Origin: Litorimonas taeanensis
Lineage (GTDB): Bacteria; Pseudomonadota; Alphaproteobacteria; Caulobacterales; Maricaulaceae
DNA: 64,000 nt
NCBI RefSeq assembly: GCF_003634015.1
Contig: NZ_RBII01000001.1
Coordinates: forward strand, 496,001-560,000
Direction: 5' to 3'
Made by a program: the position numbers and the translations under genes. The notes beneath the pieces were generated by a model. It was given only the letters and a program-made list of their open reading frames with translations, was not told the origin of the DNA and ran no database searches. Positions 47,529 through 64,000 of the stretch are shown piece by piece. Positions within the stretch are counted from its first letter, which is position 1, and each line of letters starts with the position of its first letter.

Positions 47529-47609
47529 ATGGATAAAAATAAAAAGTTCACAGCCAGCGTTGCGCCCATGATGGATTGGAACGACTATCCAATAAAAACA
47601 ATGGGTTAG
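47529..47609 (+). pseudogene. dusA: Fragment of the 5' end of dusA (tRNA-dihydrouridine synthase A), likely att-site scar
   Basis: The 26-codon reading frame from ATG 47529 gives MDKNKKFTASVAPMMDWNDY and then diverges to a stop at 47607. DusA proteins begin with an (R/F)SVAPMxDWTDRHCR block holding the FMN-site start, so FTASVAPMMDWND is a specific match, with Thr replaced by Asn. The rest of dusA is absent from the window. The first codons of dusA are a known target for a family of integrases, which leave one short 5' fragment at one end of the element and an intact gene at the other. I therefore read this as an attachment-site remnant. A chance match is unlikely but not excluded. Confidence 0.65.
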
Positions 47610-47651
47610 GCGTCCTCGTGTGCAATCTGTGTGCAGTTCGAAAAAGTTTTG

Positions 47652-47667
47652 TGCCTAAAATTAGGCA
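47652..47667. repeat. Perfect 16-bp palindrome TGCCTAAAATTAGGCA-type element
   Basis: Arms TGCCTAA and TTAGGCA flank a central AA, between the dusA fragment and the RES toxin gene. It may be an integrase or regulator arm site, or part of the toxin gene's 3' end region. Confidence 0.5.
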
Positions 47668-47698
47668 TTATTTGAGGGTAATTTGAGTGATGTGAAGT

Positions 47699-47714
47699 GA
47701 CCTCAAATGAGGTC
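47699..47714 (-). terminator. Hairpin directly after the RES toxin gene
   Basis: Arms GACCTCA and TGAGGTC around AA begin 4 bases after the toxin stop on the minus strand. There is no T run, so it is a 3'-end stabilising hairpin or a weak terminator. Confidence 0.45.
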
Positions 47715-47717
47715 AGA

Positions 47718-48428
47718 TTATCGGATGATTTTAAATACTTCGCCGCTCGTTTCGTCTCTATACATGTCAATGAATTCGCCATTGAAGTGATAGGCAAAAT
47801 GCCGACCTTGCATGGGCACTCCAATCAAATCAGGCCAGAAAGCCGCGAGGCATAAACCGCCTTCATGTCTGACGCTTGGGTACAGAATACCAGATGAGCC
47901 GTTTCGTCGAAAGTCACGTGCGAGTGATTGAGAGGCGACATAGTCATCTGGTGCCAGGCACTGGGCATAATCTTTTCGGTCTGTGAGGTCGTGGAAGCTG
48001 TGGTCGACCTTGCCGATGAGTTCGCGGTATTGAGAGAACCATCCGGGCTCCTCTTCACTCGCACGGTAAATTTCTGAGCGATGATGCATTGTCTCAGCGA
48101 GAGCTGTCTCGGCTTTCTTCGCTGCATAGTAAGCACCAAAGGTGCCGTCGTGAAACCGACCCGCCCAATTTGGGCTGACGTGTGTGAAGGGTGCCATAAC
48201 ATATGAGGCTCCAGGGCCTGAAACACGCCGTTCTGGCGGGACAAGTGATAACTGCCCAATGACTTCGACAATCCGTGGATTGCTCTTGGCCTCCAGCGAG
48301 GCCAGAAGCTCCCAGTCTTCGGGGTCGGAGGTGTCTTCAAATAGATCAATAGGCGGAAAGATGGACGAGATGATGCGATAAGCCTTCGACCATCTCACGC
48401 GTTTCGTTTTAAGGGGCGACCTAGCCAC
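47718..48428 (-). CDS. RES-domain toxin (NAD-degrading type)
   Basis: This is a 236-residue protein. The RES fold is shown by an N-terminal Arg block (KAYRIISSIFPP), GRFHDGTFGAYYAAKKAETALAETMHHR with the conserved Gly-Arg-Phe and Glu, and the later SSGILYPSVRHEGGLCLAAF with the conserved Ser. RES toxins degrade NAD+ and stop growth until neutralised by an Xre/MbcA-type antitoxin. It starts at GTG 48428 and overlaps the antitoxin gene by 8 bases, in the usual antitoxin-first order. The pair lies in otherwise gene-poor DNA beside the dusA scar, fitting a mobile or addiction module. Confidence 0.92.
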   Translation of the reverse strand: MARSPLKTKRVRWSKAYRIISSIFPPIDLFEDTSDPEDWELLASLEAKSNPRIVEVIGQLSLVPPERRVSGPGASYVMAPFTHVSPNWAGRFHDGTFGAYYAAKKAETALAETMHHRSEIYRASEEEPGWFSQYRELIGKVDHSFHDLTDRKDYAQCLAPDDYVASQSLARDFRRNGSSGILYPSVRHEGGLCLAAFWPDLIGVPMQGRHFAYHFNGEFIDMYRDETSGEVFKIIR

Positions 48429-48840
48429 GGATTGCGTCGAGATAGTCTCTTATCGCCATGAGGTCTGTCATGCGGCCATTGAGTAATATGTCTAAAGGAC
48501 GTGCGCCATCGAAATGGGCATTTGGCATTTTGATCCAGTCATAGCCGCGCTGCTTTTCAGTGAAGAGGTATTTTAGCCCTTTGTGAATACCGGCTAGAAT
48601 AGACAGGCGCATCTTTCTGTCCATATCCATAGGGCCAATATGGCCTTTCTTCCAACGGGCATAAGTGCGGTTACCGATACCGCCCAAAAGAACACAGCTT
48701 TCAGTATCGGTTAGATTCCAGAGCTCAAAGACTTTTACGGCAAAACGTGCGCCAGCCTCGGCTTCAGAATCCGTAATCTGAAACGTGCCTTGGGGTAGGG
48801 CGACTGCTCGCTTTCCGCTATGGACTTGTTGAAACTGCAT
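48421..48840 (-). CDS. Xre/MbcA/ParS-type antitoxin of the RES toxin
   Basis: This is a 139-residue protein. An N-terminal helical Xre-like region (EAGARFAVKVFELWNLTDTE, then ARWKKGH for the recognition helix area) is followed by the MbcA/ParS toxin-binding part (MRLSILAGIHKGLKYLFTEK, then WIKMPNAHFDGARPLDILLN) with the typical NxxF-GxxPLxxL ending. ATG 48840 has AGGAGC upstream. It binds and masks the RES active site and probably represses its own promoter. Confidence 0.92.
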   Translation of the reverse strand: MQFQQVHSGKRAVALPQGTFQITDSEAEAGARFAVKVFELWNLTDTESCVLLGGIGNRTYARWKKGHIGPMDMDRKMRLSILAGIHKGLKYLFTEKQRGYDWIKMPNAHFDGARPLDILLNGRMTDLMAIRDYLDAIRG

Positions 48841-48859
48841 AATAAGCTCCTGTGTGAGT

Positions 48860-48888
48860 TATATATGTCTTTTATGCCAAAATGTCAA
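48860..48888 (-). promoter_or_regulatory. Sigma-70-like promoter of the toxin-antitoxin operon
   Basis: On the minus strand TTGACA (48888-48883) is separated by 17 bases from TATATA (48865-48860), 19 bases before the antitoxin ATG. Both boxes are near consensus. Confidence 0.7.
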
Positions 48889-49022
48889 TATTGTGTATAA
48901 TTATGACAATTGGCTAATATAAACAAAGGTGGCGTTTGAGAATAATTTGAGTCCGCAAGCAGGAGCCAAGAAAAATTAATAAATTCAATTATTTCAGTGA
49001 GTTAAGTGTCAGTTAAATCGTA

Positions 49023-49058
49023 AAAAGGGCACATAAAAAGCCGTATAAAAGGGCACAT
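49023..49058. repeat. Direct repeats AAAAGGGCACAT in gene-free DNA
   Basis: Copies at 49023-49034 and 49047-49058 have a 24-base period. They are in the 604-base stretch 48841-49444, which also has the toxin promoter and a perfect 15-base palindrome (TAGACGA-T-TCGTCTA) at 49106-49120. I see no supportable gene in the rest. The spacing could suit an iteron or a regulator site, but two copies are few. Confidence 0.5.
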
Positions 49059-49444
49059 GGGGATAATTTAGAGGTCTCCACATTTTGTTGTGCCCAAGGG
49101 GCTACTAGACGATTCGTCTAATACTAACCTAGAATATGCCTAAACCAAGTTGTTGTGAAGCGCAGGTTTTATATCTGATAACAAACGTGGGCACAGTTGA
49201 CGCATATTTCATTGAAACAGGTGTTAATCTGTAAAAAGTAGAAAGTCTCATAAGGGGGCATTGCGGACATTAAATAAGCGGCTTAAACTACCCAAAAATA
49301 GGCTTGATAATTTTTAAGCTTTTCTGGGCGTATTTGTAGGCCAAGCTGAAAGTCCACCTTGGAGGCATGTTATCATCAAACTCCGAAAGATACTGTTTAG
49401 CAGTAACTGGGCGTTTGGAGGTCATGAACCACCTAGACTTCTAA

Positions 49445-49762
49445 TCATTGGCTTTCGGGCAACCTGACTACAATGCCCTCCATTTCTTCTGTAATAGGTA
49501 TTTGGCAAGATAATCTTGATGTCGGCTGAACTTCATCAGCAAAATCAAGCATGGATTGTTCCATGTCATCAGGGGTGCCGGTTAGCGCCGAGTAAGAACT
49601 ATCAATATAAACATGACATGTCGCGCATGCACATGCTCCGCCACAATCAGCGTCAATTCCAGCGATCGAGTTTTTTACAGCGGCTTCCATAAGGCTGTCG
49701 CCGACTTTTGCCTCAATAGAGTGTTCTTCACCTGCATGTGACATAAATAGAATTTTGGGCAT
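49445..49762 (-). CDS. 2Fe-2S ferredoxin (adrenodoxin/Pdx type), oxygenase electron carrier
   Basis: This 105-residue protein from ATG 49762 has AAGGA upstream; the open frame starts at 49792 but lacks a site there. The cluster ligands are C40, C46, C49 and C86 (DCGGACACATCHVYID and SCQIP), in the vertebrate-type spacing C-x5-C-x2-C-x36-C. It carries electrons from the reductase in the next gene to the Rieske oxygenase of the operon. It is the last gene of the operon. It is not a plant-type or Rieske-type ferredoxin. Confidence 0.94.
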   Translation of the reverse strand: MPKILFMSHAGEEHSIEAKVGDSLMEAAVKNSIAGIDADCGGACACATCHVYIDSSYSALTGTPDDMEQSMLDFADEVQPTSRLSCQIPITEEMEGIVVRLPESQ

Positions 49763-49772
49763 GATAAGTCCT

Positions 49773-51005
49773 TTATTTAAATTGAGCGGCAATGTCTTTT
49801 AAAGAGCGATCGCTATCGGCGAGCCATTCGGGGGGGACTTTTGCCTTAGCCGTAATGAGCCGCTTGGCTGTCATAAATTCTGGCGCGCTATTAATGGCGT
49901 CAGCTGCAATGAGGATATCATCTTTAAAGTAGAAGACAGCGAATTTTTCATTGTCGCTATCGCCGCGAATAACAAAATTATCATAATCTGTGGACAGGCC
50001 TGCGATTTGTAATTTGATATTATATTGATCAGACCAAAACCATGGGCAGTCTAGTTTTGGGGCAGGTTTGCCCATAATCGCGGCTGCAACCTGTTTGCCT
50101 TGCTCAATGGCATTGTGAACACTTTCAAGACGCCCCAGGCGGCCATAAGGGAGGATAAAGCGCTTCGCACAATCTCCCGCGGCATAAATATGAGGAATAT
50201 TTGTTCTGCCTGCCTCATCCACTAAAATGCCATCTTCGCATTTAATTCCGGCTTCAGCGGCGACTTCAATATTGGGTAGGATGCCAATACCAATCAGAAG
50301 AGCATCACAGGGTAAAGTTTCACCAGAGGCAAGTGTTACGCTGTCAGCCTTGCCATCTTTTCCATTAATAGATGAGGTTGAGCATCGCGTTTTAATGTTT
50401 ACACCATAACGCCTGTGCAAATCTTCGTAAAACGCGCTAATTATTGGGCTCGTAACGCGGGCCAAAACGCGGTCCGCCAGTTCTAAGACCGTGACGTGAG
50501 TTCCTAAAGTCTGTGCCACTGCAGCCGTTTCAAGACCAATGTATCCCGCACCTATGATGACGAGGTTTTTATCAGGCCCGACATGCGGCCGTAGTGCGTC
50601 GACATCTACGAGATTGCGCAGCCCAAAAACATTTTCCAGCTGTGCTCCCTCCATTGGGAGCGTGCGATTACGTGAGCCCGTTGCAAAAACGAGATGATCA
50701 AAATTGAATATTTTTCCAGATTGTGTTGTGGCTGACATTGAATCTGCGTCAACAGATGAAATAGTTATGTTCGTCAAAACATCAATATTTTGAGACTCGT
50801 ACCATTCAGCGTTTTTAAAGTAGAGCCGCTCTTGTTCCAGTTCCCCTTTCAGATAGGCTTTAGAGAGTGGTGGGCGTTGATAGGGCGGGGAGGGCTCTTC
50901 ACCTAATATCGTGATTTTCCCTTCAAACCCACCCTGCCGCAAAGAGGTGGCGGTTTGAGCCGCCGCTTGTCCCGCACCAACAATCAATACCGTCGCATCT
51001 GACAT
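49773..51005 (-). CDS. NAD(P)H-dependent ferredoxin reductase (FAD, Pdr/BphA4 type)
   Basis: This is a 410-residue flavoprotein. The FAD-binding VGAGQAAAQTATSLRQGGF starts the protein, with LGEEPSPPYQRPPLSKAYL and the NAD site VIIGAGYIGLETAAVAQTLG. NIPHIYAAGDCAKR shows the GD of the FAD domain, and the C-terminal YFKDDILIAADAINSAPEFM is typical of this class. It passes electrons from NADH to the adjacent ferredoxin. It is 10 bases before the ferredoxin gene and 2 bases after the aldolase gene. Confidence 0.95.
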   Translation of the reverse strand: MSDATVLIVGAGQAAAQTATSLRQGGFEGKITILGEEPSPPYQRPPLSKAYLKGELEQERLYFKNAEWYESQNIDVLTNITISSVDADSMSATTQSGKIFNFDHLVFATGSRNRTLPMEGAQLENVFGLRNLVDVDALRPHVGPDKNLVIIGAGYIGLETAAVAQTLGTHVTVLELADRVLARVTSPIISAFYEDLHRRYGVNIKTRCSTSSINGKDGKADSVTLASGETLPCDALLIGIGILPNIEVAAEAGIKCEDGILVDEAGRTNIPHIYAAGDCAKRFILPYGRLGRLESVHNAIEQGKQVAAAIMGKPAPKLDCPWFWSDQYNIKLQIAGLSTDYDNFVIRGDSDNEKFAVFYFKDDILIAADAINSAPEFMTAKRLITAKAKVPPEWLADSDRSLKDIAAQFK

Positions 51006-51007
51006 GG

Positions 51008-52045
51008 TTAGTTCGCGTGTTTTTTCAAATCGAGGGCCACATCCACTATCATGTCTTCTTGGCCTCCTACCATGCGGCGACGGCCAAGCTCGACGAGGAT
51101 TTCGCGTGTATCCATATCGTAATCTTCCGCCGCTTTTTCGGCGTGTCGGAGGAAGCTGGAGTAAACCCCCGCATAGCCCAGTGAAAGCGTTTCGCGGTCA
51201 ACACGGACGGGGCGATCTTGCAATGGACGGACAAGTTCTTCGGCAGCATCCATCAGTTTGAACGTGTCACAGCCATGGTTCCAACCCATCTTGTCGACGG
51301 CAGCAATAAAGACTTCGAGCGGTGCGTTACCTGCGCCTGCTCCCATTGCAGCAAGCGAAGCATCAATACGGCGCGCGCCGTTCTGAACAGCGGTGATTGA
51401 GTTGGCGACCCCGAGTGACAAATTATGATGGGCGTGTACGCCGCGTTCTGTTTCAGGTTTCAACACACGGTCATAGGCTTGTAATCGGGTCGCATAATCA
51501 TGCATGTTCATTGCGCCGCCTGAATCGGTACAATAAATGCACGTCGCGCCATAGCTTTCCATAAGTAAGGCTTGTTGAGCGAGGTCTTCAGGTTCGATCA
51601 TGTGGCTCATCATTAGAAAACCAACTGTGTCCATACCTAAATCACGTGCAATCCCGATGTGCTGGCGAGAGATGTCCGCTTCCGTACAATGTGTTGCGAT
51701 ACGAACAGAGGTCGCACCGAGGCTGTGTGCCTGGCGCAGGTCATGTTCCGTCGCGATGCCGGGGAGGCAGAGCGTTGCGATTTTAGCATTTTTGACAGAG
51801 GCTGCGGCGGCTTCAATCCACTCCCAGTCCGTATGACGACCAAATCCATAGTTAAAGGAGCTTCCCTGTATGCCATCACCATGGGCGACTTCAATGGCAT
51901 CGACACCCGCTTCATCAAGTGCCTTGGCAATATTTGCAACATCATGGATGGTATATTGATGACGAATAGCATGCATGCCGTCGCGTAGCGTTACGTCTTG
52001 GATATACAGCTTATCCTTTTTGGGATTTGTGACTTTACCTGTCAT
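51008..52045 (-). CDS. dmpG: 4-hydroxy-2-oxovalerate aldolase
   Basis: This 345-residue enzyme is of the DmpG/BphI/MhpE family. The metal- and substrate-site motif [36 protein letters not shown]-like THCTEAD and [13 protein letters not shown] are clear. The helical communication domain is at the C-terminus ([15 protein letters not shown]). It splits 4-hydroxy-2-oxovalerate to pyruvate and acetaldehyde and channels acetaldehyde to DmpF. Its ATG overlaps the DmpF stop by 4 bases (ATGA), the standard coupling. Confidence 0.97.
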
Positions 52046-52983
52046 GCCGCCGCTCCAAATTTAAGTGTGGCAATTTTCTCAGCTGTCGCCATGCCAGCAG
52101 ACGTCATAATGTCGAGGTTACCTGCATAGGCAGGAAGGTAATGTGCTGCGCCTTCTACTTCGAGAAAGACAGAAACCTTCACACCTTCGATAGGCTCCAT
52201 TCCTGGCATGCAAAGCGGGTTATTTGAGCCGAAGCGTTCAAACTGGACCTCTTGTTTGAGTCTGTAACCCGGCACGTAAGCCTTAATATCATCGACCATA
52301 TCTTTGACTGATGTTTCGATCTCAGCTTCATTGCCGCCAACGGAGAAGGCGTAAACGGTGTCGCGCATCAGAAGCGGGGGTTCGGCAGGGTTCATGATGA
52401 TGATAGCTTTACCTTTTTCCGCGCCTCCAACAGTTTCAATGCCTTTGGAGGTCGTCTCAGTAAACTCGTCAATATTGGCCCGCGTTCCAGGACCTGCTGA
52501 TTTGGAACTAATGGAGGCAACGATTTCCGCATATGGCACAGATTCCGAAACACGGCTGACAGCATGGACAATTGGAATTGTTGCTTGGCCGCCGCATGTG
52601 ACCATGTTCACATTAGGCTCATTGAGGTGCTCATCCATATTCACGACAGGCACACAATAAGGACCAATGGCGGCGGGCGTTAGATCAACCATTTGCTTGC
52701 CATCACGCATACAAATGGCGTGATGATGTTTATGTGCGCCTGCAGATGTGGCATCAAAGACGATATCAATCTCGTTCCAGACATCCATTTTTGTGAGGCC
52801 GTCCAAGCCTTCATGGGTAGTGGCGACTTTTAGGCGTTGCGCTCGGGCCAAGCCATCAGAGGCCGCGTCGATACCAACTAAAGCCCCCATCTCTAATACC
52901 TTAGAATTGCGCATCACCTTGATCATCAAGTCCGTGCCAATATTACCCGAACCGAGAATGGCAACTTTAATTTTTTTGGTCAT
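52042..52983 (-). CDS. dmpF: Acetaldehyde dehydrogenase (acylating)
   Basis: This 313-residue enzyme is of the DmpF/BphJ/MhpF family. NAD-binding [16 protein letters not shown], the catalytic Cys in [19 protein letters not shown], and [20 protein letters not shown] are diagnostic. It forms acetyl-CoA from acetaldehyde in complex with the aldolase. Four-base overlaps at both ends couple it to the hydratase and aldolase genes. Confidence 0.97.
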
Positions 52984-53762
52984 TTAAAGCTCACTTCACA
53001 ATCGCCAATACCTTCGATCGACACGTGCATTTTATCACCTGAAGAAACAGGTTCGAGAGGGACGAGGGACCCTGAGAGAATGATCTCTCCTGATTTAAAG
53101 GGTATGTCACGTTCTCCGAGTGTGTTCGCGAGCCATGCCACGGCTTTTAAAGGTGAGCCAAGCGTTGCCGTGCCGACGCCTTCTGAGAGCGGCTTGCCAT
53201 TTTTTGTAACAACAGCTTTACAGCCCAGAAGGTCAACCGTATTTGGATCAACCCAATCAGGACCAATCGCCATTGTTCCGCAAGACGCGTTATCAGCGAT
53301 TGTATCTTGAATTTTGATTTTCCAATCTTTGACGCGACTATCCACGACTTCGAAACAGGCTGCTACAGATTCTGTTGCTGCGAGAACATCTTCTTCTGTA
53401 ATGCCAGGCCCAACTAAATCTGCTTTTAACTTGAAAGCAATTTCAGCCTCTGCGCGCGGTAAAATCATGTTGGAGGTGTCCACGACATTGTCCTTGGCCC
53501 ACATTGTATCTGTTAGGAAACCGAAATCAGGTTGATTAACACCGAGCATATTCATCACAGCGTCAGAGGTGATTCCAATTTTTTTACCAATGTCTTGTTC
53601 ACCCGCTGATTTACGTAGTGCGTAAATCGCGAGTGAAATTTCATAGGCGTCATCAACCGTCAATCCTTCATAGGTTTCGGTCAAAGGGCCAATAGGCTCT
53701 CCGCTGCGTAGCGCATGATAAAGAGCATGCGCAGCAGCTTGGGTAATGTCATGAGAGGCCAT
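52980..53762 (-). CDS. 2-oxopent-4-enoate hydratase (2-hydroxypentadienoate hydratase) family
   Basis: This is a 260-residue protein from ATG 53762. The longer frame to 53918 reads into the upstream hydrolase gene and is poor protein sequence. Seen: [41 protein letters not shown] with the metal-binding Glu pair, [28 protein letters not shown], and [14 protein letters not shown] at the end. It hydrates the dienoate to 4-hydroxy-2-oxovalerate. The paralogous 4-oxalocrotonate decarboxylase has the same fold, but no dehydrogenase or tautomerase for that branch is here, so hydratase is preferred. Confidence 0.92.
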
Positions 53763-53763
53763 T

Positions 53764-54621
53764 CTATTTCCCGCTATTCTCTTTGAGGAACGCAATCGCG
53801 AGTGGGTTATAGAGCTCTGGACGCTCGTGCTGTGGCCAGTGACCACATTCATCAAATAGCTCCAAACGTGAGCCTTCAATATCCGCATGCATCTTATCAG
53901 CTTCAGGCACTTCACCAAATGGGTTGTTGCGACCCCAAACGATAAGTGTTGGTGTTTTGATCTTGTTAAGCTGCTCCGACGTCATCATATTGCGTTGACG
54001 GATTTCCATGTTCTGCAAGCAGAGTAGGTTGTGCAGGTTCTTTTGGAATTCGGGCTGATGATAAATCACATAGCGTGTCTGAACCAATTCCTCAGTTGCA
54101 TCAGCCGCGTCATGCATCAAAAGCTGAAGGCGTTTACGGGTCAGGTCGATATCGTCTTCCATAACAGCGGCTGTTGTTGACTTGATGAGGCGCTCCATAA
54201 TGGCTGGGTTCGCTTTCGTCCCGCCCGCTGCGATAAGTTGCAAAGAACGAACGCGCTCCGGATGGTTCAAAGTCAAAATTGCGGCAGTCCAGCCGCCCAA
54301 AGATTCACCTGCCAAATGCGCCTTTTCAATACCCATAGCGTCCATGTAATTGATGACATGTTCAACATAGCGGTGAATTTCAAAATTATAGTCCGGCTTA
54401 TCAGTAAAGCCATGGCCAAGCGCATCGATTGAATGGCATTTAAACCCAGCCTCAACGTGAGAGCGGATATTGCGCGTAAACGCTTCCATATGTCCTGATG
54501 TGCCGTGCATCATAATCACGTCTTCACCTTCACCTGCGATGAGGGCGCGTGTTTTGATACCTTTGGCATCCACGTGTTTTACTTGAAATTCAAGACCCAA
54601 TAGGTCGTGCCAAATAGTCAT
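53764..54621 (-). CDS. Alpha/beta hydrolase, probable meta-cleavage C-C hydrolase (second)
   Basis: This is a 285-residue protein. Oxyanion segment MMHGTSGHMEAF, nucleophile elbow GESLGG (S107), Asp region VWGRNNPFGEVPEADKM and His in DECGHWPQHERPELYN make up a complete triad. Similar to hydrolases of 2-hydroxy-6-oxo-dienoates (DmpD/XylF/MhpC-like). It would release 2-hydroxypentadienoate for the hydratase, whose ATG follows this stop by one base. It is one of two C-C hydrolases in the operon. Confidence 0.9.
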   Translation of the reverse strand: MTIWHDLLGLEFQVKHVDAKGIKTRALIAGEGEDVIMMHGTSGHMEAFTRNIRSHVEAGFKCHSIDALGHGFTDKPDYNFEIHRYVEHVINYMDAMGIEKAHLAGESLGGWTAAILTLNHPERVRSLQLIAAGGTKANPAIMERLIKSTTAAVMEDDIDLTRKRLQLLMHDAADATEELVQTRYVIYHQPEFQKNLHNLLCLQNMEIRQRNMMTSEQLNKIKTPTLIVWGRNNPFGEVPEADKMHADIEGSRLELFDECGHWPQHERPELYNPLAIAFLKENSGK

Positions 54622-54633
54622 AGTCTTCTCCTG

Positions 54634-55569
54634 TTAATTCGGTTCACAAATAAATACGCCCATTCCCGTCAGCCAATCGGGCATAGGGGAATAAGCAAGG
54701 GTTTTTCCGGTGGCAAAATTGATAGCGGAATGCATGACAATCCAATTGCGCAGTTCGTTGGCACCATTGCCCGCCGTTTCGACGAGGGTGTCTTCGGAAA
54801 TTGTTTTCAGCCAGTCTTCGGTTTTACCGTCGCATAAGGCTTGTAGAAACGTCTCATCAAATTCTTCGTTTAGTCGCGGCGGCGCGTTTACAATAATTGC
54901 GCGGCGACGCTTTTCGTAACGTTCCCAATCTCCGCGGCCGTTTTTCCAGCTATCAACAAGGAAGTCATCATTATCGCTTTTTGGCTTGCGCCAATCTGGG
55001 AAAGGGAGTTGGTGCGATAATCCGCCACTTGCAATGATAGCAACTGTCATATCATCGGGCAGGGTTTCAACCGCAATTCGAATGGCTTTTCCCAAAGTCA
55101 GGCAGCGCTCCAAGCGAGGTAGAGGCGGCGCGAAACTATTTATCATAATAGGTACAATCGGAATTTGATTTTCCAAAGTCAGATATTGGATTGCATGACT
55201 GATACCATGGTCGATAACGAAACGTGTTGAAAAGGCCATGTCATAGCCTTGATCAAGTAAACTGTTGGCTATGGTTAAAGCATTATCCGGGCTTGTCTTT
55301 TGTGCGCCTTTAGGCGTGCCGTGTTCTCCACTTGATTCAATTTCATCAACGCCAATGGCAAAGCTCGACATCATATCCAGCCAGTGCCCGCGAAAGTGGT
55401 TTGAACCAACGACAATTGCGAGGTCAGGCTTTAGTGCATGCATAGCAGCGCTAGCTTGGTGAAGTGCATTTTTAAAATTATGCGCTTCAGGGAGGTGGTC
55501 AACCTTTGCCCATTGAGTATTCATTAGCGTCGTATGAGACGCGCCTATGCCCATGATTATTTTCGCCAT
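54634..55569 (-). CDS. Class III (LigB/MhpB-type) extradiol ring-cleavage dioxygenase
   Basis: This is a 311-residue protein resembling MhpB of E. coli block by block: GIGASHTTLM (first His), VVGSNHFRGHWLDMMSSFAIGV (second His region, NH as in DHY), FVIDHGISHAIQYLTLENQIPIVPIMINSFAPPLP, and IASGGLSHQLPFPD. These fit a non-haem Fe(II) site. It opens a catechol-type ring next to a hydroxyl (meta cleavage). Its start overlaps the stop of the M20-like gene (TAATG). Substrate is unknown; MhpB likeness suggests a catechol with a carboxy-alkyl or similar side chain. Confidence 0.92.
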   Translation of the reverse strand: MAKIIMGIGASHTTLMNTQWAKVDHLPEAHNFKNALHQASAAMHALKPDLAIVVGSNHFRGHWLDMMSSFAIGVDEIESSGEHGTPKGAQKTSPDNALTIANSLLDQGYDMAFSTRFVIDHGISHAIQYLTLENQIPIVPIMINSFAPPLPRLERCLTLGKAIRIAVETLPDDMTVAIIASGGLSHQLPFPDWRKPKSDNDDFLVDSWKNGRGDWERYEKRRRAIIVNAPPRLNEEFDETFLQALCDGKTEDWLKTISEDTLVETAGNGANELRNWIVMHSAINFATGKTLAYSPMPDWLTGMGVFICEPN

Positions 55570-56831
55570 TAGCTCATCTTTCCGAAGTATTTAAGAACGC
55601 TCAGGGTCAGGAATTTCGTGAGATGGCGAAGCTCGTTGATGGCAACGCAGTTCATACCGAGCGCGAAATCGACACTGGGTAACTTAGCTTTCGCCAGTCC
55701 TATACGGGCGGTAGGGATACCATGCTGGCGCAAAATATTTGCATCCGTTGCCCCTGACATGAGTGTAAAGGGTTCATGTGGGCGGCCCTTTAAGTGCTCC
55801 CAGACTTGTGTCGTGGTTTGAATAATCGGTTCTGATGGCGACGTGTGCGATCCATCGATCGTCTGTACGCGTTTCGTGGTAAGACTTAGGCCAAGTTCCC
55901 CGCGAAACGTCTCAATTGCTTGAACAAGTTCTTTTTCGACATCATCAGCATTTTGTTGTGGCGTGAAGCGTAAATCGATTAAGAAACGCGCAGCTTCTGG
56001 CGTGAAAGAGGGCATGCGCTTCCAGCCTGATTCCATATGCGCGATATGGCCTTGCGGGCGGCATAGAGCGCTCGCATGGCGTTCAGAATAGCCCTCAAAC
56101 CAATCTTCAAGTTTTAGGATAAGCTTGCTCGCATTGGCGATAGGGTTGTCATAAGGCATCAGATGACGCGCGCCGACATAATTATGTTTGCCCGCAACTT
56201 TGACCTCTAACCAAATAAACCCAACTTCTTCCCATGTCACCGATGTGCCAGATTTAGCTATAATCGCGGCGTCAACCTTTGGAATTTGGGTGAGCATGTA
56301 CTCGCAGCCTGAGCCGTGGCCAGAGTTGTGGTCAAAACCCTCGCGGCCATGTGTGGGCATACCCCCCGCCCCAAAGCCGTAAAACAGATTGCCGGGCAGC
56401 TCAATATTCAGCGCTTTTAAGACTTTAGCCGTTTCAAGAATACAAGCGCCGTGACCTTTTGGGTTATGTGCGCCAAGTCCAAAAACGTGGCCGTCTTTAA
56501 CATAAGCTTCCGCCCGAAAGTCATCCCGCATGTGAGGACCAAGCCAAGGCAGATCTTCTGCTTTGCTATTACTTGTGACCGTGTCAATCGGCGCATAGAG
56601 CATGAGCGATTTGCCATCGCTCCTCTCGGAGTAGATTCCAAATGCGTTGGATTGCGAGGGGCTAATCTCTTGCGTGGATGCGTCCACATCATAGCTTTGG
56701 AGCTTGCTGCATATATATGCAGCCAGAGGTGCTTCCTCACCGGTAGGCGAGGCAATATTGACCATGTCGGAGAGAGTTGTCGTTAAACTGTCATCCGATA
56801 TTAAGTCATCGATATGAGCGCTAAGGCTCAA
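55569..56831 (-). CDS. M20-fold protein with degenerate metal site
   Basis: This is a 420-residue protein that follows the M20 peptidase/deacetylase layout: early SPTGEEAPLAAYI, dimerisation lid region (WLEVKVAGKHNYVGARHL), and the late SGATDANILRQHGIPT. The usual zinc ligands are largely missing. The HxD block is APID at 80-83 (His absent). The bridging Asp of GxGxxDxKG is Asn 123 (GLGAHNPKGHG). The Glu-Glu pair is replaced by GFGAGGMPTHG, and the late His is not found. Peptidase chemistry is therefore unlikely. It starts at TTG 56831, directly after a small ORF. A role in aromatic breakdown, for example as a non-zinc hydrolase or binding protein, is inferred from the operon. Confidence 0.82.
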   Translation of the reverse strand: MSLSAHIDDLISDDSLTTTLSDMVNIASPTGEEAPLAAYICSKLQSYDVDASTQEISPSQSNAFGIYSERSDGKSLMLYAPIDTVTSNSKAEDLPWLGPHMRDDFRAEAYVKDGHVFGLGAHNPKGHGACILETAKVLKALNIELPGNLFYGFGAGGMPTHGREGFDHNSGHGSGCEYMLTQIPKVDAAIIAKSGTSVTWEEVGFIWLEVKVAGKHNYVGARHLMPYDNPIANASKLILKLEDWFEGYSERHASALCRPQGHIAHMESGWKRMPSFTPEAARFLIDLRFTPQQNADDVEKELVQAIETFRGELGLSLTTKRVQTIDGSHTSPSEPIIQTTTQVWEHLKGRPHEPFTLMSGATDANILRQHGIPTARIGLAKAKLPSVDFALGMNCVAINELRHLTKFLTLSVLKYFGKMS

Positions 56832-56933
56832 CTAATCTTCCCAAGGGGCGTCTTTGGGCGCGCCGACCCATGTGCCTGAAACTTTAAGTAAGAAATCAAC
56901 AAACAGGTTTTTTATAATACGGATTGGATTCAT
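56832..56933 (-). CDS. Possible 33-residue small protein inside the aromatic operon
   Basis: The ORF starts at ATG 56933, two bases after the stop of the upstream hydrolase gene, and its TAG is followed immediately by the TTG of the M20-like gene. It exactly fills the gap. The peptide starts MNPIRIIKNLFVDFLLKVSG, with a short amphipathic, hydrophobic helix, and ends in an acidic tail (PWED). It may be a small helper peptide or simply a coupling ORF. It has no recognisable family. Confidence 0.45.
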   Translation of the reverse strand: MNPIRIIKNLFVDFLLKVSGTWVGAPKDAPWED

Positions 56934-56935
56934 GA

Positions 56936-57838
56936 TTATGCTCCAGCCATGACTTCATCATGGGGCTGTTGAAGGAAGCCGTGAACAATCTGAAAGTAAT
57001 GTTCAGGACGTTCCTCTTGAAGGTGATGCGAAGAGGCATCCAAAATATGTAACTGGCCACGCTGAACCATATTCATCAGCATCAGGGGATAATCTGGAGT
57101 TAGGAAGTCATCTTGAAGCCCCCAGCAAAAAAGGGTCGGGCAGGCTACATCTTTAAGAACGGGCTCCATTTCTTGCCATTCTCCGCGCGGGCTGTCGGCA
57201 TTTGCCGCGAGTGCCATTTCTTCTGGGTTCAGGCTTTGCTCGAACCGCATTTTCACGGTTTCTTCAGGTATGAGGTCTGGGTTGTACCATTCTAGGCGCG
57301 CGATGAGCTGACGCATTTTTTCAAGCGTTGGGCCTTCCGCTCCGCCGTAATAAATGTCGCGTGCGTTACGACCGCGCCGACCACCCTCCGGGAGCGGGCA
57401 GAGTGGGCCTCGGAAAACGGGCATAGAACCTGTGATGGTTAGAGACCGCACACGCTCAGGAAAACGCGAGGCGAGGCGGAGAGCGATTGTCCCTCCCCAC
57501 GAGTTACAGACAAAATCAGCTTTTTCGACACCGAGTGCATCCATTAGCCGCGTGATAGAGCCGCTATGATAATCCCACATGGGCCCTTCAATAATGTCTT
57601 TGCTGGATTGTCCATATTGTAGCAAATCCGGCATGATGACTCGGTAATGCTCTGCGAACATATCAGATACAACGGCAAAGTCAGACCAAGCTGTACAGCC
57701 AGGACCGCCGCCATGAAGAAGAAATACGACGCGGTCACCGCTGCCCTTTTCGATGGTGTAGTATTTGTCTTTGCCGGCTTTTACCATTTGTCCTTTTGGA
57801 GCTGGGCCAGGGTTAAGGCTTACGAGGTTTTCGGACAT
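56936..57838 (-). CDS. Alpha/beta hydrolase, probable meta-cleavage C-C hydrolase (first)
   Basis: This is a 300-residue protein with oxyanion FLLHGGGPGCTAWSDF and PDLLQYGQSSK. The nucleophile elbow NSWGGT (S113), Asp in GLQDDFLTPDY and His in DASSHHLQEERPEHY form a complete triad. The HGGGPG block is the mark of BphD/MhpC-type C-C hydrolases and proline iminopeptidase-like relatives. It follows the Rieske gene by 2 bases. Together with the second hydrolase it may process two different intermediates or substrates. Confidence 0.9.
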   Translation of the reverse strand: MSENLVSLNPGPAPKGQMVKAGKDKYYTIEKGSGDRVVFLLHGGGPGCTAWSDFAVVSDMFAEHYRVIMPDLLQYGQSSKDIIEGPMWDYHSGSITRLMDALGVEKADFVCNSWGGTIALRLASRFPERVRSLTITGSMPVFRGPLCPLPEGGRRGRNARDIYYGGAEGPTLEKMRQLIARLEWYNPDLIPEETVKMRFEQSLNPEEMALAANADSPRGEWQEMEPVLKDVACPTLFCWGLQDDFLTPDYPLMLMNMVQRGQLHILDASSHHLQEERPEHYFQIVHGFLQQPHDEVMAGA

Positions 57839-57840
57839 GG

Positions 57841-59022
57841 TTACGCGTCCTCTTCTATTTTGTCATGAAAGGGATGAGGGCCTTTGAAAAGCTTGCGCCA
57901 TTCCAACAACGAAACGTCCGGGCGATAAAGGCGCTCAGGTGGTGCGTTGGTTTCTTCGACCATCCAATGGTCTTGGCCCGAGAAGTTGCCATGAAACATC
58001 CAGCGAATTTGCAAAAGATATTGCAAGTAGTAGAGCCACTTTTTAATGCCGGTTTTAAACTGGATCATCACCCCAACATATTTTGTTTCATCGACGTCTA
58101 TCGGGACATAGAACTCATAATGAATGAAGTTCGGATAAGCGATACGGAGGACGCCTGGCAGCGAGATTGATGCGAAGCCAGTTAAGTTTTGTTTTTTGAT
58201 GTAGGCATTTGTTTTGCCGCCACCCGTATTGCCCATAAATTTACCCTGACGCTGTTTTGGTTTTATTTTGAACCAGCGGTCATTCGTCCATTTACCAAGC
58301 CCTGGATAGTCAGCTTCCCAGTAGCGTTCGTCTTCAACGCGGTAGAGCCATCTTCCTTCTTTCTCGATATGAATCTTATTCCATGTCGGCATTACTTTCA
58401 TTATGCGCCAGATTGATGTGCGGTGCAGATATTTGGCGTGACCTTCATCGAATCCGTTTTCCGCGTAAAGACGCCAATCGCCGCCGCGATCCTCGATCCG
58501 GCCGCCCACAGCGTATTTAGGAGGGTCGACTAACTCTTTTGGAAGCTGGTCTTTAAGCGGGTGCGGTTCACCGTCACCCACATAGACCCAGATAAGGCCA
58601 ATGCGTTCTTCTGCTGGGTAGGTTTTTACTGCGGCCTTATTGCACATCCGGCTATCGGGTCCGTCGGTTATAACGGCCTTTAACTCGCCGTCTTTCAGGT
58701 TAAATGTCCAGCCGTGGTAGGGGCAAGAGACGGTATCAGGCCACCACTGCTTGCCTTGAGAAAGTCGGACGCCGCGGTGAGGGCAGCGATCGTGCAGAGC
58801 GCGAGGTTTGCCCTCGGCGTCTCGTTGCAGCATGATTTTCTCACCGCATACTTTTATACCCGTGGGTTTTTTAGCTTCTAGCTCTCGCGCCCAAAGCACA
58901 GGGTACCAATAGTCGCGCAATCCTTGTTTGGCGGCTTCATATTCGGGAAATGCGCTCCAATCCCGACCTGGGTCATATTTTTTAGCGTGAGCTTTTTCTT
59001 CGAGTGTCATAGATTTATTCAC
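57841..59022 (-). CDS. Rieske non-haem iron oxygenase, alpha subunit
   Basis: This is a 393-residue oxygenase. The Rieske cluster is CPHRG (C80, H82) and CPYHGW (C100, H103). The mononuclear iron ligands are in ENGFDEGHAKYLH (D192 bridge, H195, H200). There is no beta-subunit gene, so it is a single-component-type terminal oxygenase, as in the VanA/DdmC/CarAa groups, fed by the ferredoxin and reductase at the far end of the operon. The first gene of the operon, divergent from a LysR gene, so it probably performs the first step: ring hydroxylation or O-demethylation. The substrate is unknown. Confidence 0.94.
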   Translation of the reverse strand: MNKSMTLEEKAHAKKYDPGRDWSAFPEYEAAKQGLRDYWYPVLWARELEAKKPTGIKVCGEKIMLQRDAEGKPRALHDRCPHRGVRLSQGKQWWPDTVSCPYHGWTFNLKDGELKAVITDGPDSRMCNKAAVKTYPAEERIGLIWVYVGDGEPHPLKDQLPKELVDPPKYAVGGRIEDRGGDWRLYAENGFDEGHAKYLHRTSIWRIMKVMPTWNKIHIEKEGRWLYRVEDERYWEADYPGLGKWTNDRWFKIKPKQRQGKFMGNTGGGKTNAYIKKQNLTGFASISLPGVLRIAYPNFIHYEFYVPIDVDETKYVGVMIQFKTGIKKWLYYLQYLLQIRWMFHGNFSGQDHWMVEETNAPPERLYRPDVSLLEWRKLFKGPHPFHDKIEEDA

Positions 59023-59119: not shown

Positions 59120-59138
59120 ATCAAAATTGGGAGACAAT

Positions 59139-60071
59139 GTGGATTTTCGCCGTATTCAACATTTTGTGCACGTTGCGGAACTTGGCAGCCTGTCAAAGGC
59201 CGCTGAGCGTCTTAACATCGTGCAGCCCGCATTATCACAGAGTATCAAGCGGCTTGAAGATGAGCTTAGTGTCTTACTGTTCAATCGGAGTAGAAGAGGA
59301 ATGGAACTCACCGAATCCGGTCAAACATTTCTCAACCATGCTTATGGCATATTGAATCAATATAATCGCGCGAAAGAAAGTTTATCTGCAAAAGACGGAG
59401 ATCCTCAAGGTCTCGTCTCAGTGGCAATGACAGCAAGTTCACTGGGGGCGCTAACGGTACCTCTCGCGAAAAGCCTCATGCTCCATTATCCTAAGATCAG
59501 GCTAAACATAGAGTCCGGTCTCGCAGCCAACATCCAACAGTCATTTGAAGCGGGAGATTATGATCTGGTTGTAAGTCATCTTGTAAGTGCAGGCGCCAGC
59601 ATTCACATAGAAAATTTAATAGAAGAAGACCTTTTTTTGACGTCTCCCTATGATCCAAACAATCTGGGCGCTGAGATTGAATTCAAAGACCTGGAGGGAT
59701 TGCCTCTTATCATTCCGCAAGATCGCCACGGCGTTGCGCCAGAAGTGGCAAAATATGCACTGGAAAAAGATATTGAGCTTGAAATGGCCCAGGTGGCCGG
59801 CACGATGCACGCCACTCTTCAGCTTATAGAAGCTGGTTTAGGGCATTCTTTTTTACCTTGGTCTGCTATTCACGAACGCGTTGAGCAAAATCGTATTTCT
59901 GCCCGTAAGGTCATAAACCCAAGCTTACACCATAAAGTCAGTATGGTGTATCCAACTCACCGGCCTCTGACACCCGCGACGATCGCCGTTATGGATCTCA
60001 TTCGGCTGGCGGCAAAAGATGTATATAATATAGGAAATTGGGCCGGCACATTGCTACTGTCTTCAAAGTAA
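59139..60071 (+). CDS. LysR-family activator of the aromatic operon
   Basis: The 310-residue protein from GTG 59139 has GGGAG just upstream. The in-frame TTG at 59127 overlaps that site and is less likely. The helix-turn-helix (FRRIQHFVHVAELGSLSKAA, ERLNIVQPALSQSIKRLEDE, RSRRGMELTESGQTF) is standard, followed by the co-inducer domain (VSVAMTASSLGALTVPLAKS, LIIPQDRHGVAP, FLPWSAIHERV). The CbbR/CatR-like layout and the divergent position make it the likely regulator of the operon. The co-inducer is probably the aromatic substrate or an early intermediate. Confidence 0.92.
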   Translation: MDFRRIQHFVHVAELGSLSKAAERLNIVQPALSQSIKRLEDELSVLLFNRSRRGMELTESGQTFLNHAYGILNQYNRAKESLSAKDGDPQGLVSVAMTASSLGALTVPLAKSLMLHYPKIRLNIESGLAANIQQSFEAGDYDLVVSHLVSAGASIHIENLIEEDLFLTSPYDPNNLGAEIEFKDLEGLPLIIPQDRHGVAPEVAKYALEKDIELEMAQVAGTMHATLQLIEAGLGHSFLPWSAIHERVEQNRISARKVINPSLHHKVSMVYPTHRPLTPATIAVMDLIRLAAKDVYNIGNWAGTLLLSSK

Positions 60072-60120
60072 TATAAATGCGTGAAGAATCATGTAAGCGT
60101 TGATAGTCAATGGAGTCGAA

Positions 60121-60744
60121 ATGTCAGATTTGTTAGCGAATTCACCAGTTATTCCGGTCGTTGCTATTGAAGATTCCGACAACGCTGTTGGTCTTTGCGA
60201 AGCGTTACAAGAGGGCGGTATCAATGCAATCGAGGTAACCTTACGTACTTCTGATGCGATTAAAGCTATAAAACAAATCAAAAAACACTGCCCAAATATG
60301 ATTTTGGGTGTAGGTACTGTGTTGACGCCTGATGATGTGTCGCGATCTGAAGATGAAGGTGCCGATTTTTTGGTCTCGCCAGGATTGTCGCCGAAGCTTC
60401 AGAAAGCGCTTCAATCGACTAATCTGTTGGTACTGCCGGGGACAGCCACGCCATCTGAAGCCCTCACGGCATATGAAGCGGGTTTTGATAAAGTTAAGCT
60501 ATTCCCAGCTGGCGCGGTTGGCGGAGCAGCGTTAATCAAGTCTGTTTATGCGCCCATGCCAAATATCAGCTATATGCCAACAGGCGGGGTTCGTTTGGCA
60601 AATATGAATGATTATCTTTCATTGCCCAATGTATATGCCGTGGGCGGCACGTGGATTGCTTCAACAGCTCTCATTAACGCAAGGGATTGGAAAACCATCC
60701 AGGGGAACGCCCGGGACGCGATGGATATGTCAAAAAAATGCTAG
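60121..60744 (+). CDS. eda: 2-keto-3-deoxy-6-phosphogluconate aldolase family protein
   Basis: This is a 207-residue class I aldolase from ATG 60121 with GGAG upstream. Seen: IPVVAIEDSDNAVGLCEALQ, EVTLRTSDAI with the catalytic Glu, GVGTVLTPDD, FLVSPGLSPKL, the Schiff-base Lys in DKVKLFPAGAVGG, and YMPTGGV. It splits KDPG or a similar 2-keto acid to pyruvate plus an aldehyde. It lies 49 bases after the LysR gene on the same strand. In this setting it may serve the aromatic route or Entner-Doudoroff metabolism; sequence alone does not say. Confidence 0.9.
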   Translation: MSDLLANSPVIPVVAIEDSDNAVGLCEALQEGGINAIEVTLRTSDAIKAIKQIKKHCPNMILGVGTVLTPDDVSRSEDEGADFLVSPGLSPKLQKALQSTNLLVLPGTATPSEALTAYEAGFDKVKLFPAGAVGGAALIKSVYAPMPNISYMPTGGVRLANMNDYLSLPNVYAVGGTWIASTALINARDWKTIQGNARDAMDMSKKC

Positions 60745-60763
60745 TGTGAGTTTCGGCTTAACT

Positions 60764-61195
60764 CTATAGGCGGTCAAAAATGAGCGATAAGTTTGAGTTT
60801 AACTCATCGATTGTCTCGTTCTCCATGCCTTCAAACGTTTCATTCGTAGACTGTTTGACAAGTTTCCACGCTTTTTCTCTTAGCTTAAACCCTTTAGCAG
60901 TAGCCGAAACGACAGAAACCCGGCCATCTTCTTTACTCGTTTTGACGGTCACAAGACCTTTGTCTCGCATTCGATAGACAATGCGGGTCATTGTTGATTG
61001 TTTTGTGATGCTTTGATTAGCTAAAAAAGACACGCTTCTGGGTTTATCGGGGTCCATCAACATAAGAACCCTCCAGCTCGGAATATCTAAGCCTTCATTT
61101 TTTAGGTGCTCTTCTAGTTTTTGCTCATACTTCGCACCAACTATGGTGATCCAGTAGAAAACCCACTCTCTTCTATCAAAGTTTTCTATGTCCAT
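60764..61195 (-). CDS. MarR-family transcriptional regulator
   Basis: This is a 143-residue winged-helix protein. Seen: an N-terminal dimer helix (FYWITIVGAKYEQKLEEHLK), recognition part (SVSFLANQSITKQSTMTRIV), wing with SKEDGRVSVVSATAKGF (DGR motif present), and a C-terminal helix pair. It is divergent from the aromatic-acid transporter pseudogene across 271 bases, where TTCTTAAGAA (61307-61316) is the only short palindrome I noticed. It probably once controlled that transporter. Confidence 0.9.
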   Translation of the reverse strand: MDIENFDRREWVFYWITIVGAKYEQKLEEHLKNEGLDIPSWRVLMLMDPDKPRSVSFLANQSITKQSTMTRIVYRMRDKGLVTVKTSKEDGRVSVVSATAKGFKLREKAWKLVKQSTNETFEGMENETIDELNSNLSLIFDRL

Positions 61196-61466
61196 GAGTA
61201 TATCACCCTCTTAACTGCCCAATTCTGTGACTTCTCAGCCTATTAAAACCTATATTCGATTTATCACAACTACATAGAGCGTGCCGTACTTCATTTGTCT
61301 GGTATTTTCTTAAGAATAATTGTGCTTCCGGCAACACCGTTCTCCCGATTACAGACTCATTGACTCGCCTAAGTAAGCAACATAACCATAATTAGATGAA
61401 TAATCACGTAATCGGCGGCAGGGCCTAGTTTGTCAATACGTATGGCATTATGCTCGGAGGCATTCG

Positions 61467-62614
61467 GTGAAAGTAATAGAAGAATTTTCTAAGCTGCCGA
61501 GGGCTAACAGAATTGGCCTTCTGGTTCTCACAATGATTAACATGCAGGATGGGTTTGACCTTCTTGCGATCTCCTTCGCCGCCAATGCAATTTCAAATGA
61601 CTGGGGATTTCAGAGGACAGAGCTAGGCTGGGTATTCAGCGCAGCCTTATCCGGGATGCTCTTTGGGGCAACATTTCTTAGTCCTTTTGCTGATAGGTTC
61701 GGCGTCCTTTTGCTGATAGGTTCGGCCGAAAAGCCGTTACTATTATCGGGCTAATATTATCAGGTGTCGGCATGTTGATGGCGGCGTCATCGCCAAATTT
61801 AACATGGTTACTTATTGGACGACTTATTACGGGCATAGGGGTCGGAGCCATAATAACGAGCCTGAATACTTTGGCCGCTGAATATTCAGGGCCGAAACTC
61901 AGGTCGACCATGATTTCTATTTTTCAACTTGGTTTTCCAATTGGGGCAATACTCGCGGGCTATATTTGCCTATGGTTGCTAGGTGTTGGAACATGGCGGC
62001 ATGTATTTGTCTTTGGAGCGGCGCTTTCCTTTGTTTTTGTACCTGTTGTGTTTTTTCTTCCTGAATCTCCGGAGTATCTGAAGCAAGCATCAATTGCCAA
62101 AGCTGAAAATTCCGGGAAATTATCGACTCTATTTACACAAACCTACAGGTCACGGACGTTGCTCATAAGTATTTCATTTTTTCTTCAGTTGATGGTGTTG
62201 TATTTCATGCTGTCTTGGGTCCCAAAACTTATTGAAGATATGGGGCATACCGCAGCAGATGGAAACCGCGCAGGTTGGCTCATCAATGTCGTGGGCATGC
62301 TGTGTATTTTTGTTATTGGGTTTATGGCGCTACGTTTCGATGTAACGAAGGTCACGACTTTCTTCTATATAGGACTTGCTATCATGTTGGCCTTAATCGC
62401 GAGTTTCTCGCCTTCATTATTTGCGATTACGAGTCTCATTGCAATAACAGGGTTCTTTACTCACGGTGCCATGATTGGTCTCTATGCGACTGTGCCAACA
62501 CTTTATCCAGTTGAACTTCGAGCAGCAGGTTCGGGATGGTCGATTGGAATCAGTCGCCTTGGTGCCGTGTGGGGGCACCATTTTCCTATCATAGCAAGTT
62601 GCGTAAGCCTCTGA
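61467..62614 (+). pseudogene. Aromatic-acid/H+ symporter (MFS, AAHS type), frameshifted and 3'-truncated
   Basis: It starts at GTG 61467 with a strong GGAGG six bases upstream. The first 78 or so codons give MINMQDGFDLLAISFAANAI-like AAHS transporter sequence up to LSPFADRFG. A perfect 23-bp tandem duplication then shifts the frame and stops it at 61752. Removing one copy restores ADRFGRKAVTIIGLILSG, the MFS motif A, and the frame continues to IGISRLGAVWG. The 3' end is then replaced by unrelated sequence ending at 62612. Intact AAHS proteins have about 430-450 residues; this one has some 375 and lacks the last segments. The repair is directly readable, the family call is secure, and function is lost. 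Confidence 0.88.
61681..61726. repeat. Perfect 23-bp tandem duplication causing the transporter frameshift
   Basis: Units at 61681-61703 and 61704-61726 are identical. Because 23 is not a multiple of three, the second copy breaks the reading frame. This is typical of replication slippage or a recent duplication. Confidence 0.97.
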
Positions 62615-62715
62615 AAAATTTCGGAAAATCTCTCTTTCCTGTACTTTCCACACGGTAACTCGCGCGATTTGCCTCACTTCTTGCCTTACAAAAGGCGGAC
62701 GCAGGAGATGGCAGG

Positions 62716-64000
62716 ATGAAAGCGATTAGACGGCCCGACCAATACCTACGGTTACGCGGCGATACATGGCACTATGTGCGGCGCGTTCCGAAAGCGGTCA
62801 GACATCTTGATAACAGAACTCTGATATACCGCTCACTAGACATAGATAGCCGCAAGGTTGCGCGCCAGCGGCGGGATATTTGCGCCGACGAAGACAACCA
62901 GCGTTGGAACGAGTTAATGCCAAATCGTTTTCAGCCGCCCCCTAGAGAGGCAAGTTATCGCGCTGCAAGTCAACTCGCCCGCTCTCGTGGGTGCAACTAT
63001 AAGCCAATGGAGAGCTTAGTCTCACAAGACACTGTCACGGATTTGCTGCACCGCCTCATTGCATTGGAACCACTAAAAGACCGCCCGCAGCCAAAGGAAG
63101 AACGAGACGCGGATGCCCTTCTTGGAAGCTTAAAAACGCCTTCTGTGACCATCACAGAAGCTATGGACTTATATCTGTCCGAGATCGTCGCCGACGAGTT
63201 GTCCAATAAACCACCTGAATAAATTACGAATTTCTCTAAGATTAAACGTCGTGCCGTGGCTAACTTCGTCACCATAAACGGCGATATAGATATGCGAGAT
63301 ATTACCCGCGAACACGCCCACGCCGTGCGCAAATTCTGGCATGAGCGCATCCATCCGAAAGACGGCTCCGAGCCCATGAGCGGGAGCAGCGGCAATAAAG
63401 ACTTGGGCAGCTTGCGCAAACTCTACCGCCGTTATTTTGAACACATAGGCGAAGAAGAGCGCGAAAACCCGTTCCGCAATATGCGGTTTAAAGACAAAAT
63501 TCTAACGAAGGTCATGCCGTTTAAAGACGATTGGGTCAGGTCACGTATACTCGCGGCCAATGTTTTTGATGGCCTCAATCGGCAAAGCGCACTCCTCTGT
63601 ATGGCCTTGATTGAGACAGGATGCAGGCCAAGCGAGCTTGCTAACATCAAGCCAGAGAACATTCGGCTGGATGCCGAGGTTCCGCATATTCGCATCCGTT
63701 CTACGAAAGATAGAGAGCTGAAATCAGGCGCATCCGTACGCGATATTCCGCTTGTCGGGGTGGCGTTGGAAGCCATGCGGCAAGCCCCGAATGGGTTTCC
63801 ACATTATCGGGATAGGAGCTATTTGCTAAGCGCCTCGCTTACAAAAGCGTTCAAAGCGAGAAAGCTATTCCCGACGAAGCAGCAACGCATTTATAGCTTT
63901 CGACATAGCTTTAGAGCCGAATGTTGGAGGCTGGATTGGACTTTGGATTGCGTTGCACATTGATGGGTCATCGTAATCCGCGCCCAGAATATGGGGATGG
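62716..64000 (+). pseudogene. Tyrosine recombinase/integrase, broken by a stop and a frameshift (3' end outside window)
   Basis: It starts at ATG 62716 with GCAGGAG upstream. The N-terminal block (DQYLRLRGDTWHYVRRVPKA) is DUF6538-like, as in many alphaproteobacterial integrases. A TAA at 63220 interrupts the frame, but the same frame goes on with TNFSKIKRRAVANFVTINGD through the catalytic domain: Arg in ETGCRPSELANI, Lys in STKDRELKSG, and RHSF of box II. Near 63915 one base is missing. The frame that follows gives MLEAGLDFGLRCTLMGHRNP and PEYGDG with the likely nucleophile Tyr, whereas the current frame stops at 63963. It runs beyond the window. Two independent lesions indicate an inactive gene unless suppressed. 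Confidence 0.88.

Follow-up and report, generated by a model that had tools for sequence, protein, structure and literature searches.

Genomic islands specific for dusA, carrying dusA-associated integrases, are described by Farrugia et al. (2015, PMC4482086), where the island is proposed to restore dusA. IMEVchUSA3 is a dusA-specific mobilizable element: its excision is mediated by the integrase, together with a directionality factor, and the element, similar to SGI1, is mobilised by an IncC plasmid (PMC8409611). The same source reports that a dusA element provides a new promoter, dusA expression being lower than in element-free cells. ICEs integrated at dusA have been reported in Mesorhizobium (PMC8627217). 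As for integrase stubs left behind at dusA, none are mentioned in the titles searched, which is weak evidence of absence.

The island reported here belongs to this known, dusA-integrative kind, to which it adds catabolic cargo and a series of decay stages. It shares with the islands described by Farrugia et al. the target in the 5' end of dusA, an integrase located beside the rebuilt gene, direct repeats at both ends and an island-supplied dusA 5' end; its size is near their mean of 42.6 kb, and their cargo includes metabolic enzymes and conjugative transfer genes (PMC4482086). It differs from the islands described there by the presence of an operon for ring oxygenation, of the CarAa-like type, and meta-cleavage, and of a second catabolic cluster. 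In comparison with the SGI1-like IMEVchUSA3 (PMC8409611), it features trb-type remnants, and the small protein adjacent to its integrase matches HTH_17 only. In comparison with the Mesorhizobium ICEs (PMC8627217), a trb-type system is found in a sister element from the same genus (genome G007), while the present island is devoid of most of it.

The analyzed window is a stretch of 64,000 bp, corresponding to C1:496001-560000 of a 2.78-Mb genome (G000), assembled in 3 contigs and 99.95% complete. Its features, along with those of the island lying beyond its right border, are listed below; positions are those of the window, unless preceded by "C1".

47330..47528, + strand: probably what erosion has left of the right end of a previous dusA element, with element-type upstream DNA and a decayed integrase start (reverse strand); outer limit approximate
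47529..47609, + strand: 26-codon dusA 5' fragment (attL); codons 1-17 assigned to the former host dusA, the remainder to island DNA
47545..47580, + strand: attL core, exact 36-bp repeat; its partner, attR, is at C1:583033-583068, within the intact dusA
47581..64000, no strand: part of the island contained in the window, continuing to C1:583068
47581..47683, + strand: island left-end sequence; taken together with the core, it is similar to the left ends of G007 and G006
47616..47637, + strand: candidate integrase arm site, 20-22 bp, repeated (about 95%) in the right-end integrase-dusA intergenic region
47718..48840, - strand: Xre/RES toxin-antitoxin pair (RES PF08808, Xre/ParS PF09722)
49445..59022, - strand: aromatic/heteroaromatic meta-cleavage operon, from Pfam, NCBIfam and solved-structure matches
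59127..61195: LysR regulator (+), KDPG-type aldolase (+), MarR regulator (-)
61467..62614, + strand: broken MFS transporter, in two frames
62716..63963, + strand: decayed DUF6538/tyrosine integrase, interrupted by an in-frame stop at 63220 and, further on, by a change of frame
Beyond the window, in order: TrkA/TrkH-type K+ uptake genes, IS6-type transposase, second catabolic cluster
C1:577864-580868, beyond the window: trbF-trbG-trbI, followed by DUF736
C1:581512-581778, beyond the window: HTH_17 protein beside the integrase, for which Pfam gave HTH_17 only
C1:581830-582915, - strand: intact tyrosine integrase, 361 aa, directly before the intact dusA and divergent from it
C1:583017-584021, + strand: intact dusA, 334 codons, NCBIfam DusA equivalog

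The left end is marked by the dusA fragment, which reads MDKNKKFTASVAPMMDWNDYPIKTMG followed by a stop. The initial annotation had interpreted it as an attachment scar at the border of a catabolic island, and had predicted an intact dusA, repeating the core, to the right of the window: this was found at C1:583017. At E<=0.001, the fragment DNA has a single other match in the genome, at the start of the intact gene (81% over about 94 bp, E=7e-18). The two copies are alike over 101 bp at 80%, including the exact 36-bp core, whose positions were counted by hand from the alignments. The attR core is located on the same contig, 23 kb past the window, at a core-to-core distance of 39,488 bp: the island is accordingly 39.5 kb long, rather than the about 16 kb or more originally estimated. 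Genome-wide, three Dus-family matches are present (C1:409830, 583047 and 764762), none of them within the window, where the fragment at 47529 is the only trace of dusA; in 131 kb of the same genome, dusA fragments are limited to the two places already described. When the flanks are rejoined at the core by a script, an open dusA of 334 codons is generated, as long as the present right copy. The two att copies, the intact integrase divergent from the intact dusA, and the open frame of the gene in both its present and rejoined forms may all be read directly from the sequence.

The integrase and dusA start 101 bp apart, in divergent orientation. The protein matches Phage_integrase (PF00589, E=3e-25), and residues R209, H300, R303, H326 and Y335, to which we assign the R-H-R-H-Y roles, are invariant with G007 in the alignment. 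A GTDB scan for relatives yielded at least 593 stretches and at least 214 confirmed relatives, the best 80 of which were kept: in 76 of these 80 the homologous integrase is adjoined by dusA. The four remaining loci were counted against the present reading: two (L093, L127) are cut by a contig end, and two (L118, L121) are uncut. Among the matches listed, the nearest named relatives come from Hyphomonadaceae and Robiginitomaculum assemblies, and the host is probably an alphaproteobacterium close to these groups. In a tree of 22 proteins, the integrase falls in a starred clade with the dusA-adjacent integrases of G007 and of two Robiginitomaculum loci (L058, L059), the deep forks, including mEp460 and Rci, being left open; the mEp460 integrase, named by Farrugia et al., is 39.5% identical to the one described here. 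Composition does not help to delimit the island, and was counted against it: GC content is 0.468 in the island, 0.466 to its left and 0.464 to its right, and trinucleotide use is likewise not distinctive.

The assignment of both ends to a single element had been, in the initial annotation, a matter of inference alone; it is now supported by G007, which features the same left-end and right-end sequences. Its integrase, 80% identical, occupies the same place, and its left end, at C5:25531-25633, defines an element of 115.7 kb. The left end of the island, with its core, matches G007 at 87% over 110 bp (C5:25552-25661) and G006 at 82% over 92 bp (C55:9562-9653). The G007 match extends inward from the core, in a local alignment of 127 columns, about 24 of which belong to the core, while the DNA on the chromosomal side of the core differs between the two. 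At the right end, 5 kb are common to both elements, coding for six proteins 66-80% identical at the amino acid level (trbF, trbG, trbI, DUF736, HTH_17, integrase). The 20-22-bp segment is also found near both ends in G007, at a similar spacing from the left core, and is a candidate arm site for the integrase. In G006 both element ends are present, 10.9 kb apart, with an eroded integrase; the content includes a TonB receptor, a FAD oxidoreductase, a peptidase, an amidohydrolase and a symporter.

In G007, a coupling protein, a TrbB-type ATPase, TrbE and TrbL are recognized by Pfam upstream of trbF, and trbF, trbG and trbI by homology; no Pfam match was obtained for its putative TrbJ. Of such genes, the island retains only trbF, trbG and trbI, as identified by Pfam. 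Neither TrbE/VirB4 nor a coupling protein was found in the genome of the window, by a TrbE search and by profile searches with PF02534 and PF03135, which were positive in 5 and 1, respectively, of 14 control genomes. The coupling protein and complete T4SS expected of an ICE are thus not found in the island, and no relaxase appears among the island ORFs scanned with Pfam, some small ORFs falling outside the scan. This set of genes is best read as that of a truncated derivative of a conjugative element, provided with catabolic cargo; its ICE origin rests on the three trb genes and on the sister element. The island had been regarded as immobile: this holds for conjugation, where the genes are cut to trbF-trbG-trbI, but not necessarily for excision, as the integrase, the HTH_17 protein and both ends look intact. 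Excision by its own integrase is perhaps still possible; self-transfer, we infer, is not.

Most of the cargo described in the initial annotation is confirmed. The RES/Xre module, which gives no match in PADLOC, lies just inside the left end; the gene-poor DNA said to follow it exists, but had been overstated, as it spans only about 0.6 kb (48841-49444). The meta-cleavage operon is present, and its regulator is of the LysR type. The operon includes a Rieske oxygenase, a ferredoxin, a ferredoxin reductase, two alpha/beta hydrolases, a M20-family hydrolase, a LigB-type dioxygenase, a hydratase, an aldolase and an acetaldehyde dehydrogenase. The best solved relatives of the Rieske component are oxygenases of carbazole 1,9a-dioxygenases (best E 1.4e-41), and the component may be described as CarAa-like. 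For the LigB-type dioxygenase, the best NCBIfam models are those of 3-carboxyethylcatechol 2,3-dioxygenase, matched below their cut-offs; the hydratase is a 2-oxopent-4-enoate hydratase homologue, also matched below cut-off, while the aldolase and acetaldehyde dehydrogenase matches are above. Nothing close to this dioxygenase is present in the 17 other genomes of the genus, 6 of which show partial matches, at most at 37%. A lower-pathway trio is also found in G007, with 73-78% identity: both elements contain catabolic genes. The second cluster, at C1:564-577.8 kb, codes for a HsaA/HpaB-like monooxygenase, a flavin reductase, an IGPS homologue, an aldehyde dehydrogenase, a MFS transporter, a TonB receptor, members of the ornithine cyclodeaminase and RidA families, a DAO and two AraC regulators.

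Taken as a whole, the locus is, with high confidence, a dusA-specific integrative element of 39,488 bp, inserted by its own tyrosine integrase, and it is read as a truncated trb-type element with catabolic cargo. In the history we propose, the element would have recombined, via this integrase, within a conserved part of dusA, at codons about 6-17; the host's earlier promoter and the first 17 codons would have been left behind at the left end (47529), while the island would have supplied a new upstream region and the first codons, by which the right-end dusA is again complete. The element would descend from a trb-type conjugative one, similar to that of G007, with loss of the DNA upstream of trbF; it may still be able to excise, or to move with the aid of a helper, and would not conjugate on its own.

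This reading is probably to be supplemented by an earlier occupancy of the same site, where a previous dusA element would have decayed to a right-end scar, into which the present island was inserted. The left fragment looks itself element-derived: its similarity to element-type dusA upstream DNA runs from -72 to +51, with 76% identity to the right copy, while matching relatives of the native type align with it only from about +26 on. The DNA further left was compared with five integrase 5' regions, and in each case its score was beaten by 0-1 of 500 shuffles; when essentially the coding part alone was used, the score was reached by 0-9 of 1000. Shuffles, on the other hand, do not model relatedness, the integrase stub is short, its coding part being weak, and no further dusA fragment is found in 85 kb to the left. 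The DNA just left of the scar, initially assigned to the older backbone, is probably the right-end remnant of an earlier element, and not undisturbed backbone.

Comparable remnants are found within the genus. A dusA start of the element type is present in 7 of 18 genomes, at differing stages of decay. An intact integrase at dusA is found in two of the 18 (G000, G007), and both ends with an eroded integrase in one (G006); four (G009, G010, G012, and G011 by DNA only) feature right-end scars, where an element-type start is accompanied by an integrase remnant. In these four, no left end was recognized, matches being limited to the core; the contigs of G009 and G010 end within about 1-4 kb, and their state is less sure. 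Native-looking starts, devoid of this homology, are found in nine of the 18 (G001, G002, G003, G008, G013, G014, G015, G016, G017), while two (G004, G005) are cut by contig ends at dusA, the G004 contig ending at about codon 10.

Among the genus relatives, no empty site joins the left flank of the window to the right one, as the left flank is never found beside dusA; the TetR gene located there shows 34% identity or less in the other 17 genomes, and no empty site can be derived from it. The distance from Lon to dusA is about 5-8 kb in native-type genomes (G002, G013, G015, G017), compared with about 120 kb here. The other 80 kb contain, where read, ordinary-looking genes, and further islands are not claimed there.

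In G009 and G010 homology ends near dusA position -199 and at -202 to -206, where an inverted repeat, seen by eye, adjoins. The older left copy in the window, also by eye, may end near -200. The shared end of homology may be due to chance, shared descent or a functional limit. The last case would lead to a broader reading, rather unlikely on present evidence: dusA in this genus may be a palimpsest, its promoter and first codons being overwritten by one element after another; each element would then erode, starting at its far side, to a fixed stub of about 200 bp, composed of the intergenic DNA and the first 33 or so integrase codons, because each donated promoter must be kept. If so, DNA controlling the host gene would reach into the integrase gene, tying the start of a mobile gene to host fitness. 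In a test of the first 36 integrase codons for synonymous constraint, such as overlapping promoter or arm sites might impose, the fraction of identical third positions between G000 and G007 is 0.79, versus 0.32-0.57 elsewhere. The test was extended to 79 of the 80 loci plus G000 (L079, having no stop, was dropped), using only pairs with 55-93% identity: 25 of 37 disjoint pairs are higher in the initial segment, with means of 0.58 and 0.53 (Wilcoxon p=0.016) and a gradually declining profile. Among four control genes, a rise is also seen in the aldolase and AcDH genes, and the reverse in trbF and trbI.

Two other explanations may be set against the integration of a 39,488-bp element. According to the first, derived from the initial annotation, an old island, no longer mobile and about 16 kb long, would extend from the dusA scar to the decayed integrase at 62716. 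Both features exist, the integrase being interrupted as described, yet this arrangement is very improbable: the att partner, at C1:583033, lies about 23 kb beyond the decayed gene, and the intact integrase at C1:581830-582915, adjoining dusA, is of the dusA-adjacent kind. The 62716 protein is not significantly similar to it (E=0.07), and the tree sets it apart on a very long branch; it is ruled out as the partner of the scar and is regarded as a separate internal relic, adjoining the broken MFS gene. The second, in which the dusA fragment would result from duplication, displacement or faulty assembly, without site-specific integration, is likewise very improbable: a rearrangement could yield short dusA pieces, but the DNA inside the left end is common to two other genomes, where its position with respect to the core is the same, the other dusA copy directly adjoins the integrase, and both copies lie within one 1.7-Mb contig.

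The 39.5-kb element thus exemplifies the carriage of a catabolic operon on a dusA-targeted element. A single genus features, at this site, a graded series of the same insertion, which runs from a trb-bearing, ICE-like element of 115.7 kb and a truncated catabolic one of 39.5 kb, through a remnant of 10.9 kb and scars of the right end, to sites of native appearance. Such a series makes the genus a tractable place to ask what becomes of a host gene after its promoter has been replaced by that of a mobile element, which has later decayed.

The distance between Lon and dusA in Litorimonas taeanensis is about 120 kb (C1:463036-583017), of which the dusA-specific island occupies only 39.5 kb. In four native-type relatives the gap is about 5–8 kb, and in G011, a congener with an element-type dusA start, about 63 kb separates the two genes. 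For G009 and G010, of the same genus and dusA type, element homology is recognisable up to near -200 bp from dusA; where it stops, an inverted repeat (TGCGTCA/TGACGCA), seen by eye, is located within the integrase start. The older left copy in the window may stop at a similar point, at about 47330.

Homologues of RES and Xre are found near the homologous integrase in 12 of 80 loci, the best 80 of at least 214 relatives (L064, L065, L070, L072, L074, L076, L080, L081, L084, L085, L086, L134). In 11 of the 12 they lie about 1.4–2.4 kb beyond the integrase, being more distant in L134.

Other cargo genes, to the right of the window, are:

L007:6657-7358 (C1:562657-563358), transposase of the IS6 type (DDE_Tnp_IS240), with a catabolic cluster on either side
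L007:9368-10534 (C1:565368-566534), fusion of a flavin reductase with a substrate-binding domain of the LysR type (Pfam PF01613 + PF03466)
L007:10559-11356 (C1:566559-567356), indole-3-glycerol-phosphate synthase homologue, in the second catabolic cluster

The transposase perhaps marks the join of cargo blocks. In the fusion, for which Pfam reports no LysR DNA-binding domain, a candidate role is possibly that of an effector-controlled reductase; seven plasmid records match it over at least 80% of its length.

G007, the congener carrying the sister element, probably harbours several conjugative elements, because four TrbE homologues (C5, C12, C2 and C19; 100, 77, 66 and 62% to the query) are present in this one genome.
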